DNA from: Chloroflexota bacterium
GTDB lineage: Bacteria > Chloroflexota > Dehalococcoidia > UBA2979
Reading direction: 5' to 3'
DNA: 41,976 nt
NCBI GenBank assembly: GCA_016875635.1
Contig: VGPD01000016.1
Span: forward strand, 1-41,976
Shown: piece by piece, positions 25,171 through 31,361 of the stretch
Layout: every line of letters starts with the position of its first letter
How positions within the stretch are numbered: position 1 is the stretch's first letter
Translations under genes and position numbers: made by a program
Notes under the pieces: model-generated
Databases searched by the model: none
The model's input: only the letters and a program-made list of their open reading frames with translations
Told to the model about the DNA's origin: nothing

Positions 25171-25256
25171 GTCTCCTTTCAGAACCCGTTGATAGCCAAC
25201 TCCGCTCATCGACGAATTAGTCGGCATGTGCGACGCGGCGGTCTCCTTTCAGAACC
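25171..25256. repeat. 16-bp direct repeat carrying a ribosome-binding site
   Basis: GTCTCCTTTCAGAACC occurs exactly at 25171-25186 and 25241-25256, 70 bases apart. Read on the minus strand it contains AAAGGAGA. The proximal copy serves the GTG at 25164. The distal copy lies before an in-frame ATG at 25227, so the leader may have been duplicated. Confidence 0.8.
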
Positions 25257-25284
25257 TCGGACGCAAGTGTCAGACGGTCCGCGC

Positions 25285-26388
25285 CTATGCAAGACTCAGG
25301 AGCAGGCGCGGTGCCCCCGCGGTAGGTGAGATCACTACCGATGCCCCGGTGGCAGACCGCAGCACGTCAAGCGTGTATCCCCGCAGGCGGTCCAGCAGTC
25401 CGGCGTGCTCGTACTCGCCGGGGATCACAACCGCGTCGAGTCCGAGACGGTTCGTCCACTCACCGAGGTCGCTAAAGCCGACTCCGGTCGGCAGAACCGC
25501 AAACACGCTGCCGTCCGCTGGGACTTGGTCCATGCGATCCGCCAGATAGGGACGCCCAATCGCGGCTCGCACGTATGCAGCCTCGAGTGGCCGCCGGTCG
25601 TCGGAGCGGGGATAGGGGTCGACGAGGTAAGAGGCCGAAGCAAGGTCGTACAGGTAGAGGTCGCAGTTCGGGATCGGGCCCGCGCTCACGATCGAGTTGA
25701 GCACGCGTGTCACGGCCGAGCGCTTGCCGTCGTCGACGAGCAGACCTAGACGTCGTGGAGCTATGCCGGAGAGCAGGTCGCGCAGCGAGCCGTCACCAGA
25801 GGCTTCCCCAGAGTTGGAAGCGGGGCGGTTGGACGCGCGGACGATGTCGAGATGACTCGTGATCGCGAGAACTACACGAGGATCCTGTGACACGAACCCA
25901 GCGAAGCGCTTGTCGGGATGAGTGGCGCCGTGATGACCCCAGAGCGAGTCGTCCGAAACCTCCCACCCCACGAAGGCAACAGGCTCCGGGGTTCTGGTTA
26001 CGAGATACCACTGGTTTTCGAGGTTGCGGCGATCGGGGGGCAGGCTAAACCAGGCGGTAGCGCCGTTCTGGGCGCTCTTTGGCCGGCCCTCCCCGAACGC
26101 GTATACGGAGACACCGCGTCGCTTGATCTCGCTGTAGCGATCAGTCTCCAGTTCGAACTTCGCTTCGTTCTGGAAGCCGACGTAGACCGCCGAGGGGGCG
26201 GGGCCGGTCACCCATCCGGCCTCAATTTCCCGGCTGATCCGCAACATTTCCCTGGCGTCCGAGAGAAAGGAGAATCCTTCGATCGGGGCACCGCCACTGC
26301 GAAGCTGGATCTGAAGTCGATCCATGAATGACGCCATCCCGCCTGACCCAGGCGCCGCAGCCTCTGATTCCGACAATCTCCAGTCCAT
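25285..26388 (-). CDS. DICT sensory domain protein
   Basis: 367 residues, no membrane helix or catalytic domain recognised. The N-terminal part (about 40-160: FSFLSDAREMLRISREIE, FELETDRYSEIKRRGVSVYAFGEG, WYLVTRTPEPVAFVGWEV) looks like the DICT domain, found with diguanylate cyclases and light-signalling proteins. The C-terminal half (about 215-360), with LGLLVDDGKRSAVTRVLN and DLYLYDLASASYLVDPYP, is a second unit of unknown role. ATG at 26388 follows AAGGAAG. It diverges from the heliorhodopsin gene and could be controlled from the same operator region, so it may receive or pass on the rhodopsin signal. Domain call from pattern memory only. Confidence 0.6.
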   Translation of the reverse strand: MDWRLSESEAAAPGSGGMASFMDRLQIQLRSGGAPIEGFSFLSDAREMLRISREIEAGWVTGPAPSAVYVGFQNEAKFELETDRYSEIKRRGVSVYAFGEGRPKSAQNGATAWFSLPPDRRNLENQWYLVTRTPEPVAFVGWEVSDDSLWGHHGATHPDKRFAGFVSQDPRVVLAITSHLDIVRASNRPASNSGEASGDGSLRDLLSGIAPRRLGLLVDDGKRSAVTRVLNSIVSAGPIPNCDLYLYDLASASYLVDPYPRSDDRRPLEAAYVRAAIGRPYLADRMDQVPADGSVFAVLPTGVGFSDLGEWTNRLGLDAVVIPGEYEHAGLLDRLRGYTLDVLRSATGASVVISPTAGAPRLLLSLA

Positions 26389-26495
26389 CGCCGTCCACTT
26401 CCTTCTGCTCCAGCCACGGCACTGGGGAGGCCCCTAGCCGAGGTGGATGTCGCTAAAACTTCGTCATACCTGCGTCGGTACTGTGGGTAATATAT

Positions 26496-26552
26496 GTCAA
26501 TATGACAGTGACTGACAACCATATTGACGAAGAATCGACAAAGTTTTACCGT
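26496..26552 (+). promoter_or_regulatory. Heliorhodopsin promoter and operator (copy 1)
   Basis: GTCAATATG (26496-26504) and CATATTGAC (26520-26528) form a perfect 9-bp inverted repeat. Its right arm overlaps a -35 box TTGACG (26524), followed after 17 bases by TACCGT as -10. TTGACGAAGAATCGACAAA (26524-26542) has an 11-bp-spaced repeat of TnnAC[AG], the spacing and pattern of CarH operators. A near copy lies before the CarH-type gene at 28864. Confidence 0.65.
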
Positions 26553-26630
26553 TGCCCATACCGCGGAAGCGGGGTCGCAGGCCGCCTCTCCCGTGCTGGA
26601 GAGCCCGGATGCTTGTCGAGGAGACTGAAT

Positions 26631-27383
26631 ATGGCAGATCAAGGGCGGCTGCGTCGGGTCAATATCGTGGCCGGCGCCGTCCACGCCGGTCAGGCTGCCG
26701 CGGTCCTCGCGCTGGCGAACGGGTTCTCGCTCCCGGTGACGGGAACATTCATGGACGGCCCCCCGGGCACTTCGTCGGCGGCGTCCGTGATCCTGTTCGA
26801 ATTCCCATTCGCGTGGGGGGTGGCGGGGTTCCTGTTCCTTTCGGCCTCTGCCCACTGGATCGTCGCCGCGCCGGGTGTCTATCCGTGGTACCTGTCGAAT
26901 CTCGCGCGCTCGCGAAACTACGCGCGCTGGATCGAGTACTCGTTCAGTTCCACGCTCATGATGGTGCTCATCGCCTTGTTGACCGGCATCAGCGACGGTG
27001 CAGCGCTCGGAGCGATTGCAGGCGTCAACGCGTCGATGATCCTTTTCGGGCTGTTGATGGAGCACTACGAGCAGCCCGGTCGGCCCGGCTGGCTGCCCTT
27101 CATCTTCGGTTCGATCACGGGGATCGTTCCGTGGCTCGTCGTGGGCCTGTACCTCTGGAGTCCTCAGGTGGCGGCGACGCCCCCCGGCTTCGTCTTCGGG
27201 ATCTACGGTTCGCTCTTCCTGTTCTTCAACGTCTTCGCTCTGAACATGGTGCTGCAGTACCGGCAGGTCGGTCGGTGGCGTGAGTATCTCTTTGGAGAGC
27301 GCGTGTACATCCTGCTGAGCCTGACGGCGAAGTCAGCGCTCGCCTGGCAGGTATTCGCCGGCACGCTGGTCCCGGCGTCGTAG
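26631..27383 (+). CDS. Heliorhodopsin
   Basis: 250 residues, seven membrane helices, the usual heliorhodopsin length. Helix 7 has SLTAKSALAWQVFAG, the SxxxK retinal-binding motif with Lys234; helix 3 has RWIEYSFSSTLMMVLIA, with Glu102 as the likely Schiff-base counterion (Glu107 in heliorhodopsin 48C12). Heliorhodopsins lie inverted in the membrane compared with type 1 rhodopsins, have slow photocycles and pump nothing known, so they are thought to be sensors. GAGGAG lies before the ATG at 26631; an ATG at 26502 is inside the operator and is rejected. No Blh/Brp retinal-forming gene is in the window, but a DUF2236 oxygenase lies two genes on. Confidence 0.93.
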   Translation: MADQGRLRRVNIVAGAVHAGQAAAVLALANGFSLPVTGTFMDGPPGTSSAASVILFEFPFAWGVAGFLFLSASAHWIVAAPGVYPWYLSNLARSRNYARWIEYSFSSTLMMVLIALLTGISDGAALGAIAGVNASMILFGLLMEHYEQPGRPGWLPFIFGSITGIVPWLVVGLYLWSPQVAATPPGFVFGIYGSLFLFFNVFALNMVLQYRQVGRWREYLFGERVYILLSLTAKSALAWQVFAGTLVPAS

Positions 27384-27465
27384 GGCATGCCGGTGGCGCA
27401 GTCTGCTGGTATTCGAGCGCGCGTGAGTAGTGACGCGTGACAACCTTCGAACGGAGGAACTGGAG

Positions 27466-27786
27466 ATGTCCGAGGAGCGGAGAGAACCATACGAACTCTG
27501 CGGGATGGTCACCGTGGAATCCTTCGGTGGCGTGGCATCGCTCAGCAAATGGTGGTCGAATCGCGAGCACGCGGAGGTGCTGCAGTTCGGCCGCGAGGGG
27601 ATCGCTCCGGTGCTTGATGAAGGCGACGTCATCACCGAGGCCGAACTCGTCGGGTTGCTCGACTCGGCGTGGAGTTCTGCGCTGCTCTCGGCCTTCGCCC
27701 GGCGTCAGATCTTTCAGCTGGTGATGCGGCACTACCAGGAGCAGCCGGCGGAACTCTGGTCGCTAGGTCTCGACATGCGGGACTAA
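27466..27786 (+). CDS. Small protein of unknown function in the heliorhodopsin operon
   Basis: 106 residues, not recognised. It is acidic and soluble with no signal peptide. Features are YELCGMVTVESFGG, SKWWSNREHAEVLQFGREGI, a middle DEGDVITEAELVGLLDSAW and a helical C-terminus FARRQIFQLVMRHYQEQP. GGAGG precedes the ATG; a start 12 codons earlier (27430) is possible. It sits 82 bases after heliorhodopsin and 54 before the DUF2236 gene, so it is probably co-transcribed. A binding partner or signal-output protein would fit, but that is inference. Confidence 0.7.
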   Translation: MSEERREPYELCGMVTVESFGGVASLSKWWSNREHAEVLQFGREGIAPVLDEGDVITEAELVGLLDSAWSSALLSAFARRQIFQLVMRHYQEQPAELWSLGLDMRD

Positions 27787-27840
27787 CCGGGTTGCTGCGG
27801 AAGGGACCGCCATGCGGTCATCTCCACAGGTGAGGTCGAT

Positions 27841-28767
27841 ATGACGGTGACATTCCCATTCCGTGACCGGGTCATCCGGAGTACGAACGACCTGTTCGCA
27901 CATGCCCCGTATCCTCTCGACCGCACGGGTCAGTACCGTGGCGACGCCGGTCTCTTTGGTCCGGACTGCGTCACGTGGCCGGTGATGGGTGACGCGTCGG
28001 TCTTTGTCGGAGGGATCCGTGCGCTGCTCGTGCAGGCCGCACACCCGGAGGTTGTCGCCGGGGTGTTTGACCACTCGCGGTTCCGTGATGATCCGCTCGG
28101 GCGCCTCTCTCGCACGTCCGCCTACGTCACGGCCACCGCGTTTGGGGCGCTGCCTGAAGTCGAACGTGCGGTCGCTATCGTCTCTCGCTCGCACCGCCCG
28201 ATCAGCGGCCTCTCCCCGCGAGGTCGCGAGTACTCTGCCTCGGCGCCCGCGCTGGCGGCGTGGGTCCACAACGCGCTCGCTGACTCCTTCCTGAGTGGCT
28301 ACCAGCATTTTGGCCCGCGAAAACTCACGCGGCGCGAGGCCGATCAGTTCGTCGCGGAGCAAGCCCGGGTCGGCGCCCTCCTTGGCGCGGTCCCCCTGCC
28401 GCTGACTGCAGCATCGCTGGGGGCCTGGTTGGACGCTGTGCCGGAACTGGCGCCGTCCAGCCAGATGGTGGAGGCGGTCGGATTCCTTCGCTCGCCGCCG
28501 CTCCCGCTTCCAGTGCGCCTTGTGTACCGCATCCTGTTTGAGGCCGCAGTGGCCACGCTGCCGCCTCGGATTCGTTCGGTTTTGGGCCTGCGTGTGCGGC
28601 CTCTAGCCCGCGCGGCGGGATTGGCAACGGTGCGGCTGCTGCGTCTGGCGCTGGGCTCTTCGCCATCGTGGCGGCTTGCGATTGAACGGGCGGGTGCGCC
28701 GGTGCCACCCGGCCTGTTTCACCAGCCGCTTCCCCCGGATCGACCTGGCGTGGCCGGATCGGCATGA
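27841..28767 (+). CDS. DUF2236 (MpaB/Lcp-type) haem oxygenase-like protein
   Basis: 308 residues. The DUF2236 pattern is clear: LLVQAAHPEVVAGVFDHSRFRDDPLGRLSRT (His68, His78), then LAAWVHNALADSF (His143), spaced as in the latex-clearing/MpaB family, whose members bind haem b through conserved His. Known members cleave C=C bonds of isoprenoid chains (polyisoprene by Lcp; the farnesyl chain by fungal MpaB). GAGG lies before the ATG. Its place in a heliorhodopsin operon raises the idea that it cleaves a carotenoid to give retinal or another apocarotenoid; this is inference from family chemistry and context. Confidence 0.75.
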   Translation: MTVTFPFRDRVIRSTNDLFAHAPYPLDRTGQYRGDAGLFGPDCVTWPVMGDASVFVGGIRALLVQAAHPEVVAGVFDHSRFRDDPLGRLSRTSAYVTATAFGALPEVERAVAIVSRSHRPISGLSPRGREYSASAPALAAWVHNALADSFLSGYQHFGPRKLTRREADQFVAEQARVGALLGAVPLPLTAASLGAWLDAVPELAPSSQMVEAVGFLRSPPLPLPVRLVYRILFEAAVATLPPRIRSVLGLRVRPLARAAGLATVRLLRLALGSSPSWRLAIERAGAPVPPGLFHQPLPPDRPGVAGSA

Positions 28768-28863
28768 GTCGCTAGCGATCGATTCCTTTGCTCGTATGGG
28801 AGTGCGTGGTCGGATAAGTCACCTCATGCAGTCATCGGTTGCCCTTGAGGGGGTCATGTCTTG

Positions 28864-28919
28864 GTCAAGATGACGATGACACCATCAATCTTGACGAAGA
28901 TTCGACGAATGAATATGGT
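28864..28919 (+). promoter_or_regulatory. CarH-type gene promoter and operator (copy 2)
   Basis: GTCAAGAT (28864) and ATCTTGAC form an 8-bp inverted repeat. TTGACG (28891-28896) is a -35 box and TATGGT (28914-28919) a -10 box, 17 bases apart. TTGACGAAGATTCGACGAA (28891-28909) matches the heliorhodopsin copy at 17 of 19 bases, and the left arm matches at 14 of 17 with almost the same spacing (27 against 28). Start of transcription is predicted at about 28926, at the start codon. Confidence 0.65.
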
Positions 28920-28922
28920 CAG

Positions 28923-29828
28923 ATGATGCAGTACACCGTCCGTGCCGCCGCACTCGCGACCGGCGTTTCTGGCGACCGTATCCGAACGTGGGAACGTCGC
29001 TACGGGGTGCCCTCGCCCGCGCGTAGCAGCACAGGGCGCCGCCTGTATGAGGAGAGCGACCTCGCGATTGTCCGGCGCATGGCGGCGCTCGTTGATTCCG
29101 GCCTGAGCGCCGTCTCGGCGGCGAAGGCGGTGCACGAAGAGGCTGCTCAGTCCATTGTTCATGCGGAGCGCGCACCTGTAGTCGACCGAGTCGTGATCGC
29201 CCTGGTCGATAGCGCGGCAACCCTGGACGAGTGGGCCCTGATCAAACGGCTTGACGATGCAGAACGATCGCTGGGGATCGAGGCTGCTGTGGAGCAGTTC
29301 GTATTCCCAGCGCTCGTGGAGGCAGGACGTCGATGGGAGCGATCTGAAATCACCGTGGCCGGGGAGCACATCTTGACCGAGGTGATCCGCTCGTGGCTTG
29401 CGGTGCATTCCCGCGCACTTCCATCACCTCCCCCCGACGCGCCGTCAGTGCTGGTCGCCTGTCCCGAGGATGAGCGCCATGACCTGGGTGCGCTTTCGCT
29501 CGCGTTGCTCCTCCGTCAGGCCGGACTGCGGGTCGCTTACCTGGGCGCAGACGTGCCCACAACCGCGCTCGTCGATGCCGCTCGCGCGAAATCCTTCGAC
29601 GCGTTGTGCCTCTCCATCACGGGCGTGTCGTCCTTGCCTGTTGCGCGGATTGCGCTCAGCGCGCTGCTCTCAGCGGGAGGCGGGATGCGGCTGTATGTCG
29701 GGGGGCAGGGTGTTGCGCGGGCTTCCAACGCCGAGGCGGAGGTCCTCCCGGCGGTGCGACTTCCCGTGTCGGTCGCGGCCGCGGCTCATCTCATCGCCGC
29801 CCAGCTGCAAGGAACACGCGGCGACTGA
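28923..29828 (+). CDS. MerR-family adenosylcobalamin photoreceptor regulator (CarH/LitR-like)
   Basis: 301 residues. The MerR DNA-binding domain is at 2-75 (YTVRAAALATGVSGDRIRTWERRYG). The B12-binding region has the CarH helical-bundle motif W-x9-EH (Trp138, Glu148, His149) and ExHxxG (Glu184, His186, Gly189), where His186 would be the lower cobalt ligand, followed by LLRQAGLRVAYLGADVP. All key residues of Thermus CarH are kept, so it probably binds adenosylcobalamin, represses in the dark and releases DNA in light. ATG at 28923 and 28926 lie at the predicted transcription start with no ribosome site, suggesting a leaderless message. An earlier in-frame start at 28839 would cross the promoter. 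Confidence 0.88.
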   Translation: MMQYTVRAAALATGVSGDRIRTWERRYGVPSPARSSTGRRLYEESDLAIVRRMAALVDSGLSAVSAAKAVHEEAAQSIVHAERAPVVDRVVIALVDSAATLDEWALIKRLDDAERSLGIEAAVEQFVFPALVEAGRRWERSEITVAGEHILTEVIRSWLAVHSRALPSPPPDAPSVLVACPEDERHDLGALSLALLLRQAGLRVAYLGADVPTTALVDAARAKSFDALCLSITGVSSLPVARIALSALLSAGGGMRLYVGGQGVARASNAEAEVLPAVRLPVSVAAAAHLIAAQLQGTRGD

Positions 29829-29951: not shown

Positions 29952-31361
29952 GTGTCTAGCGAAGATCGCTCGTCACCCCATTCCGCGAACACCATCTGGT
30001 GGGTTCGACGCGATATGCGCCTCCACGACAACGCGGCGCTGCAGGCGGCGTGTGAGGCTGGCGCGCTCGTACCTGTCTTCGTGCTTGACGAAACGCTGCT
30101 CAGGTCTCGCTATCACCGGAATGCGACGCGGCGGATCGAATTCATGTTTGACGGTCTGCATGCTCTCGACGCCAGTCTTCGCACGCTGGGTAGCCGACTC
30201 ATCGTCCGGGAGGGCCACGCCGCGGAGGTGCTCAGCTCAGTCGCCAGGGAGGTCCAGGCCACGCGTGTGTTCGCGGCTGCAGATGTGACGCCTGCCGGTC
30301 GTCTGCGCGAGACGCAGGTCGCGCGCCGGCTGGAGCTGACGCTCCTGCCCGGCATCGGAGTCCGTGCAGTGGGCTCAGTTACCAAGCAGGACGGGTCTGG
30401 ATACGCTGTGTTTGGCGCCTTCCGCCGCTCATGGCTCTCGTCTCCCGGTCCACGAACGGCTGCCCTCATCGACGCACCCCCTCGCCTACCGGCGATTCCC
30501 GGGAGCGTCACCGGGATTGACGTGACCGGCGTACCAGTGCGCGGCTTCCCGGCGGGGGAAGTCGAAGCGTTGCGGCGGCTCGATCGGTTCATGGCGACCG
30601 AGATCGATGGCTACGCCGAGGGACGTGACTGCGCCGCCCTCGATATGACGTCTGCGCTTTCGCCGTATCTCAAATTCGGCATGCTCTCACCGCGACTGGC
30701 GGCCGCTCGAGCCATTGAATGCGGGTTGGGTGAAGAACGAGACGGCGCGAGTCGCTGGCTTGATGAGCTGCTCTGGCGAGAGTTCTACCTGGACGTCGTC
30801 TATCGCCAACCGGAGGTCTTGCGCGAGGAGTTCAACCCGCGCCTGCGCGGGATCCCGTGGGTCAACGCCGTGAATGACATCGAGGCGTGGAAGGCAGGCC
30901 AGACCGGCTACCCGTTCGTAGACGCCGGGATGCGGCAGCTTCAGCACACGGGATGGATGCACAATCGCGCCCGGATGGTGACCGCGTCGTTCCTCGTGAA
31001 GAACCTCCTGTGCGACTGGCGGATCGGTGAGCAATGGTTCATGGATCAGCTGCTGGACGGGGATCCTCCGTCGAACAACGGCGGGTGGCAGTGGGTCGCC
31101 GGCACAGGCACCGATGCAGCACCGTATTTCCGAGTCTTCAACCCGGTGCTCCAAGGACGACGGTTCGATCCGACGGGGGAGTATGTCCGCCGCTGGGTGC
31201 CGGAACTGGCGGGAATCCCCGGCAAAGGCGTCCATGAGCCGTGGAAGCTGGGCGCGGTTTCGACGGCGGGCTATCCTGCTCCAATCGTCGAAATCGGCGG
31301 AAGCCGGCGGCGAATGGCGGCGGCGTACGCCGAAGCCCGGAGTCGAAACGCCTCGATGTAA
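29952..31361 (+). CDS. phrB: Deoxyribodipyrimidine photolyase (class I cryptochrome/photolyase)
   Basis: 469 residues. The antenna-binding alpha/beta domain begins NTIWWVRRDMRLHDNAALQA. The FAD domain contains GYPFVDAGMRQLQHTGWMHNRARM (about 318-341) and SNNGGWQWVAGTGTDAAPYF (about 374-393), the classic CPD-photolyase signatures, with tryptophans for electron transfer. It repairs UV-made cyclobutane pyrimidine dimers with blue light. The GTG at 29952 follows CGAGGTT; a GTG at 29868 would add 28 unlike residues. It lies 123 bases after the CarH-type gene and may share its promoter. Confidence 0.93.
   Translation: MSSEDRSSPHSANTIWWVRRDMRLHDNAALQAACEAGALVPVFVLDETLLRSRYHRNATRRIEFMFDGLHALDASLRTLGSRLIVREGHAAEVLSSVAREVQATRVFAAADVTPAGRLRETQVARRLELTLLPGIGVRAVGSVTKQDGSGYAVFGAFRRSWLSSPGPRTAALIDAPPRLPAIPGSVTGIDVTGVPVRGFPAGEVEALRRLDRFMATEIDGYAEGRDCAALDMTSALSPYLKFGMLSPRLAAARAIECGLGEERDGASRWLDELLWREFYLDVVYRQPEVLREEFNPRLRGIPWVNAVNDIEAWKAGQTGYPFVDAGMRQLQHTGWMHNRARMVTASFLVKNLLCDWRIGEQWFMDQLLDGDPPSNNGGWQWVAGTGTDAAPYFRVFNPVLQGRRFDPTGEYVRRWVPELAGIPGKGVHEPWKLGAVSTAGYPAPIVEIGGSRRRMAAAYAEARSRNASM

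Follow-up and report, generated by a model that had tools for sequence, protein, structure and literature searches.

Organization of the heliorhodopsin–carH locus

The window analyzed here (41,976 nucleotides of contig VGPD01000016.1, assembly GCA_016875635.1, from a Chloroflexota bacterium) encodes a heliorhodopsin and, on the same strand, a MerR-type regulator that its sequence motifs identify as a CarH-type B12 photoreceptor. Each of the two genes is preceded by a copy of one promoter element, designated S1 upstream of heliorhodopsin (26496-26552) and S2 upstream of the regulator gene (28864-28919). Judged by sequence, this element, GTCA-N3-TGAC followed by TTGACG-N17-TAnnnT and a second box 11 bp after the first, is a conserved CarH-type operator. 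The genes at the locus are as follows.

25285-26388, minus strand: protein with a DICT domain (predicted role in light response), transcribed away from heliorhodopsin, with S1 between the two genes (PF10069, E=1.5e-5)
26631-27383, plus strand: heliorhodopsin, which opens a putative operon of three genes (PF18761, E=5.5e-93; NF038020 above cut-off; PDB 6su3)
27466-27786, plus strand: 106-aa small protein of the heliorhodopsin operon, between heliorhodopsin and the MpaB/Lcp gene
27841-28767, plus strand: protein with an MpaB/Lcp-type oxygenase domain, last gene of the operon (PF09995, E=2.6e-52; order kept in the congeneric genome G001)
28926-29828, plus strand: CarH, with MerR-type DNA-binding and B12-binding photoreceptor domains (Pfam MerR_1 and B12-binding; PDB 5c8d)
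29952-31361, plus strand: Class I-type DNA photolyase downstream of carH (PF03441/PF00875; PDB 1dnp)

The closest solved structures of the regulator are those of Thermus thermophilus CarH (PDB 5c8d, E=2.2e-26). Its MerR-type domain (PF13411) carries the RxWERRY recognition motif as RTWERRY, its four-helix subdomain carries Wx9EH (W137-ERSEITVAG-EH; missing in one of 12 aligned relatives), and its B12-binding domain (PF02310) matches the strict motif D/ExHx2G/P-x41-SxT/V-x22-27-GG from ERHDLG. These three motifs have been described as defining CarH (PMC9304148). The best-scoring NCBIfam family is the equivalog NF052513 (TransRegCarH), of which the regulator, at 116.9 bits against a cut-off of 400, is not a member; this cut-off is that of a narrow equivalog and does not delimit the CarH family at large. 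The genome also encodes two CobA-type adenosyltransferases, which could supply adenosylcobalamin (AdoCbl).

Two copies of one promoter element

The matching features that a first-pass annotation of this DNA had described were all found. The right parts of the two sites are identical at 17 of 19 positions (TTGACGAAGAATCGACAAA, 26524-26542, in S1; TTGACGAAGATTCGACGAA, 28891-28909, in S2) and the left parts at 14 of 17 (GTCAATATGACAGTGAC in S1; GTCAAGATGACGATGAC in S2). Inverted arms are present in both (26496-26504/26520-26528 in S1, 9 bp, perfect; 28859-28871/28888-28900 in S2, 13 nt, 92%), and a TTGACG -35 hexamer is followed in both by a 17-nt spacer and a -10 box, TACCGT in S1 (3/6) and TATGGT in S2 (4/6). 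The spacing, called nearly identical in that annotation, is the same between -35 and -10, but the distance from the left box to the -35 is 22 bp in S1 and 21 bp in S2. When the two upstream regions were compared, 26 of 40 positions were identical in the best 40-bp match, a value reached by none of 200 shuffles. The remaining intergenic DNA differs as had been described, with no sequence common to S1 and S2 outside the operator. The features of the two sites are listed below.

26489-26518, minus strand: possible divergent promoter TTGTCA-N18-TATATT toward the DICT gene, within S1 (consensus scan, 10/12)
26496-26506, plus strand: S1 left box, inverted repeat GTCA-ATA-TGAC, identical in L017, a near relative
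26524-26529, plus strand: S1 -35 TTGACG within a CarH-type box; core 26520-26542 conserved in L017 and G001
26535-26540, plus strand: S1 second box TCGACA, 11 bp past the first
26547-26552, plus strand: proposed heliorhodopsin promoter -10 TACCGT (weak), identical in L017
28853-28868, minus strand: mirror copy of the core, TTGACCAAGACATGAC, in the left half of S2
28864-28874, plus strand: S2 left box, inverted repeat GTCA-AGA-TGAC
28891-28896, plus strand: S2 -35 TTGACG within a CarH-type box
28902-28907, plus strand: S2 second box TCGACG, 11 bp past the first
28914-28919, plus strand: carH promoter -10 TATGGT; TAnnnT kept in six carH promoters

Units of TnnAC[AG] recur 11 bases apart in both sites (at 26524 and 26535 in S1; at 28891 and 28902 in S2), as the annotation had pointed out. 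This geometry was nevertheless set aside as stand-alone evidence because it does not discriminate: bare 11-bp pairs of this kind occur four times in the window, against 2.1 ± 1.2 in shuffles. The long inverted arms were likewise rejected as a conserved feature. They are broken in the L017 carH site, and the short GTCA-N3-TGAC box together with the -35 box is therefore favored. The suggestion that the site had been duplicated was not borne out, as the copies share no flanks and give no evidence of an actual duplication event; a recent duplication is also unneeded, the same consensus arising in other genera.

Distribution of the element

The window belongs to a 2.09-Mb metagenome-assembled genome (MAG) that is ~90% complete, and the relatives used for comparison are MAGs with conflicting submitter labels (Dehalococcoides, Thermoflexus, Acidobacteria). 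With up to three mismatches allowed, the pattern TTGACGAAGAWTCGACRAA was found twice in the window's genome; the reversed control gave no match. For the looser pattern TTGACRAAGANNNGAC with one mismatch, a single further match appears genome-wide, the mirror copy on the minus strand of S2.

An independent profile was built only from the carH promoters of four other genomes (G001, G012, G015 and G026), which hold carH orthologues of 62-68% identity, and was used to search 60 whole genomes. Its only matches in the window's genome were S1 (E=1.8e-6, 28.9 bits) and S2 (2.9e-4, 21.9 bits); in G001 it matched its training site and one place 118 bp upstream of heliorhodopsin (7.4e-4). That carH promoters from other genomes pick out exactly S1 and S2, next to a regulator with CarH motifs, supports the predicted CarH-type operator with carH autoregulation and heliorhodopsin control. 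The wider regulon that had been suggested did not appear, since neither the profile nor the pattern searches of the window's own genome gave anything beyond the two sites.

When 393 genomes of the class were searched with a nine-site profile, eight matches fell below E=1e-9, all before carH or heliorhodopsin. They comprise five carH promoters that had contributed to the profile, the two heliorhodopsin sites and a further site in G037, outside the training set, which precedes a truncated carH. The remaining matches have E>=6e-4 per genome, the range of chance across 393 genomes. The element precedes carH in every genome that has a close carH (at 62-68% identity, or as a truncated gene in G037), and the site before heliorhodopsin was found in two or three genomes, all in one genus. 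Autoregulation of carH thus appears common to six genomes and heliorhodopsin control appears limited to this genus. No convincing operator was found upstream of heliorhodopsin in G006, G010, G015, G018, G024 or G032; among these regions from other genera the G015 pair alone beat shuffles, with an alignment that lies outside the carH operator.

Conservation and promoter assignment

The carH promoters of the four genomes align with S1 and S2 over TCGTCA-N3-TGACGA, TGTCAA-N5-TTGACG, the second box 11 bp on and TAnnnT. Between S1 and L017 the left box (12/12), the core (23/23) and the -10 (10/10) are identical, and the core through the -10 is identical at 33 of 33 positions, compared with 54-89% in the surrounding noncoding DNA (54% over the 13 bp between left box and core, 77-89% in the adjoining noncoding DNA). 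The S2 core is also identical in L017 (22/22), but it lies within DNA ~94% identical throughout, so that S2 is informative mainly by distant comparison. When the window was aligned with the DNA upstream of heliorhodopsin in G001, the best match fell at the operator core with a score of 22, against a mean of 8.9 and a maximum of 15 in 500 shuffles.

In the six carH promoters whose gene starts with ATG or GTG, TTGRCR-N17/18-TAnnnT is kept and the start codon lies exactly 6 nt past the -10. On the basis of this conserved spacing, which is independent support for the promoter assignment, the carH mRNA is probably leaderless and would start at 28926. The heliorhodopsin transcript would carry a leader of ~70 nt with a GAGGAG ribosome site. 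In L017 (3870-3885), the carH start position 6 nt past the -10 reads ATT, and a TTG lies 3 nt upstream.

Form of the operator

Two descriptions of the operator fit the data. Read as inverted repeats, it consists of GTCA-N3-TGAC upstream and TGTCAA-N5-TTGACG across the -35, the latter degenerate in the window; read as repeats in 11-bp phase, it has a -35 box preceded at 22 bp by TGAC and followed at 11 bp by a further box. GTCA-N3-TGAC is intact in most other sites compared, with GTCG-N3-TGAC in G015, and in G037 both arms have changed together to give GCCA-N3-TGGC. The -35 lies inside a box in S1, S2 and the carH promoters of five other genomes. Only two units per site obey the TnnAC[AG] rule in phase; the other phases are degenerate or inverted.

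The Myxococcus xanthus operator has likewise been described both ways, as a perfect inverted repeat upstream with an imperfect one over the -35 or as 11-bp repeats (PMC9304148). It spans ~55 bp, as in other myxobacteria, and its TTGAC(A) -35 lies inside one repeat (PMC9304148). Tandem 11-bp repeats of nnnnTnnACAn, usually three or more including pseudorepeats, typify CarH operators, and operators with one or two perfect units exist (PMC9304148). The present system thus resembles the myxobacterial ones in its MerR-type CarH with an AdoCbl domain, its ~55-bp operator and its -35 within a repeat. It differs from them in its target, heliorhodopsin in place of carotenoid genes, in that no phytoene synthase was detected, and in its few perfect 11-bp units (PMC9304148). 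With T. thermophilus CarH (PDB 5c8d) it shares the domains, Wx9EH, the B12 motif and the overlap with the -35. However, the T. thermophilus operator is made of three tandem direct repeats (PMC9304148), whereas two in-phase units and inverted left boxes are found here, and Glu replaces the His that follows the Trp in T. thermophilus CarH.

Arrangement in related genomes

In G001 the divergent order of DICT gene, site and heliorhodopsin is kept and carH lies 12 kb away, which indicates that the site is associated with the heliorhodopsin promoter as such, and that simple proximity to carH does not account for it. The G001 site has a -10 of TATCGT with a 16-nt spacer. In L017 a 1.4-kb inversion covers the DICT gene and S1 (L017:154-1562, corresponding to window 25198-26609), and heliorhodopsin follows the DICT gene on the same strand. 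Because G001 has the window's arrangement, this inversion looks derived, or it is an assembly error. An invertible DNA switch was rejected as its cause, the ends having no inverted repeat >7 bp.

In G001 and G015, carH adjoins a light-type cluster (DUF1365, amine oxidase and dehydrogenases; in G001 also MpaB and photolyase). Part of this cluster is found in the window's genome on another contig, C12 (L090:7896-11446: DUF2177, dehydrogenase, amine oxidase and DUF1365), where no CarH-type operator was detected even with filters off; the promoters that retain a CarH site are therefore those of carH itself and heliorhodopsin. Carotenoid synthesis, the usual CarH target, seems absent from this genome: phytoene synthase was not detected in its ~90% complete sequence by a search that was positive in seven of 14 control genomes. 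A search for Blh gave no match in any control genome.

Proposed regulation and alternative explanations

We consider it likely that S1 and S2 are operators of the CarH encoded beside them, and that dark AdoCbl-CarH blocks both promoters and light releases them. What was observed directly is that the two sites are present and unique in the genome, are conserved, are linked to carH orthologues and overlap a conserved promoter, and that the regulator carries CarH motifs; from this we infer CarH binding and the transcript starts, and dark repression, AdoCbl dependence and release by light would follow by analogy with characterized CarH proteins. In the dark, AdoCbl-loaded CarH would bind the ~55-bp element, whose main box holds the -35 hexamer, and would keep RNA polymerase off the promoters of carH (S2) and heliorhodopsin (S1). 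Light would break the Co-C bond of AdoCbl, upon which the CarH oligomer would disassemble and both promoters would open. The output would be heliorhodopsin with its two operon partners, more CarH and possibly photolyase. Several observations weigh against this interpretation: the heliorhodopsin -10, TACCGT, is weak; the left box is absent upstream of G001 heliorhodopsin; each site has two TnnAC[AG] units, against three or four in the T. thermophilus and Bacillus megaterium operators (PMC9304148); the residue after the Wx9EH Trp is Glu, where many CarH proteins have His; and S1 in L017 points at a fasciclin gene, away from heliorhodopsin.

CarH might instead bind both sites as an activator or as a B12/redox sensor and not as a light-released repressor. 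The Glu after the Trp and the DICT-domain protein encoded beside S1 agree with such a role, and some CarH/LitR-like regulators work with other sensors, an example being class II LitR with a LOV protein (available part of PMC9758184). However, a box that covers the -35 has the geometry of repression, and photolyase and heliorhodopsin are encoded at the locus, so we regard this role as unlikely. Less likely still is that only S2 is a genuine autoregulatory site and that S1, as a vestige or decoy, does not affect heliorhodopsin. The weak -10 of S1 would fit, as would the inverted L017 block that aims S1 at the fasciclin gene, but S1 outscores S2 with the independent profile (28.9 versus 21.9 bits), its core and -10 are perfectly conserved between diverged relatives, and it has a counterpart at the matching place before G001 heliorhodopsin, with carH 12 kb away. 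The shared sequence might also be no operator, being instead a strong -35/extended or sigma-factor-specific promoter of light-stress genes, given that the best-conserved stretch includes the -35 hexamer and that promoter spacing is kept. This is the least probable explanation, as conservation reaches ~28 bp upstream of the -35, to GTCA-N3-TGAC with its paired GCCA/TGGC change in G037, and 11 bp downstream. Moreover, the two copies in the genome are too few for a general promoter class, the strong matches in 393 genomes lie solely before carH or heliorhodopsin, and the light-type genes of C12 (DUF2177, amine oxidase and DUF1365) lack the element.

Beyond operator function, we lean slightly toward a broader view of this pair of sites, in which CarH in this lineage has lost its carotenoid target and its only operators are its own and the heliorhodopsin promoters (perhaps also the divergent DICT promoter), a B12 photoreceptor thereby timing a retinal photoreceptor by light.

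Relation to known systems

Heliorhodopsins have a wide distribution and a disputed role, and what induces them is little understood. Occurrence of heliorhodopsin near a MerR-family, photolyase or DICT gene is reported in the available parts of PMC11109279, PMC8612252 and PMC9769723, MerR genes being one of ten neighbor classes in the first of these. Within those parts, the links come from gene order or protein contact, with no CarH assignment and no operator, and transcription control is called unclear for some heliorhodopsin operons (PMC8612252). A literature search joining heliorhodopsin with CarH, whose coverage mostly excludes subscription journals, found no paper. The type of repressor and operator is known, and the target and setting are new.

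The operator predicts when heliorhodopsin is made, namely when B12 is available and the light is of a kind that photolyses AdoCbl, and predicts as its partners the small 106-aa protein and the MpaB/Lcp-type oxygenase. A CarH in a bacterium apparently without carotenoid synthesis would also mean that CarH is not tied to pigment control. Probably, one light sensor here switches on another. A LitR/CarH-family regulator is similarly tied to a second photoreceptor in Pseudomonas (class II LitR and LOV); as far as the available part of that report goes, the LOV protein acts through the regulator, whereas the prediction here is that the regulator governs expression of the second photoreceptor (PMC9758184).

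Additional features of the locus and its relatives

A minus-strand promoter over S1 toward the DICT gene is proposed tentatively, its -35 not being retained in L017; S1 might control both directions, heliorhodopsin and the DICT gene, which is divergent from heliorhodopsin in G001 as well. The photolyase gene is possibly co-transcribed with carH, no terminator-like site having been found between the two, and the photolyase is homologous to its counterparts in L017 and G001 from about codon 13 onward (about 29988). Rfam gave tRNAs only in the window, with no riboswitch. The 106-aa protein (27466-27786) had no Pfam or NCBIfam match; it is conserved in L017 and G001 and is 88-94% identical in relatives.

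Upstream of the more distant carH of G024 (L031, upstream of 1504) TGCAC-type boxes stand in 11-bp phase, TTGCAC-N5-ATGCAC ... TTGCAC-N5-ATGAAC, which suggests that this genus has changed its operator specificity. The heliorhodopsin promoter of the G024 genus likewise has a TGTTGCA -35. In two small single-contig genomes of the class (L014 and L015), the DNA just before heliorhodopsin reads as the terminal part of a DUF2177-like protein; in other relatives this family is part of the carH cluster. Finally, the retinal-binding lysine region of the window's heliorhodopsin, SLTAKSALAWQ, aligns to SLVAKSALAWQ of heliorhodopsin 48C12.
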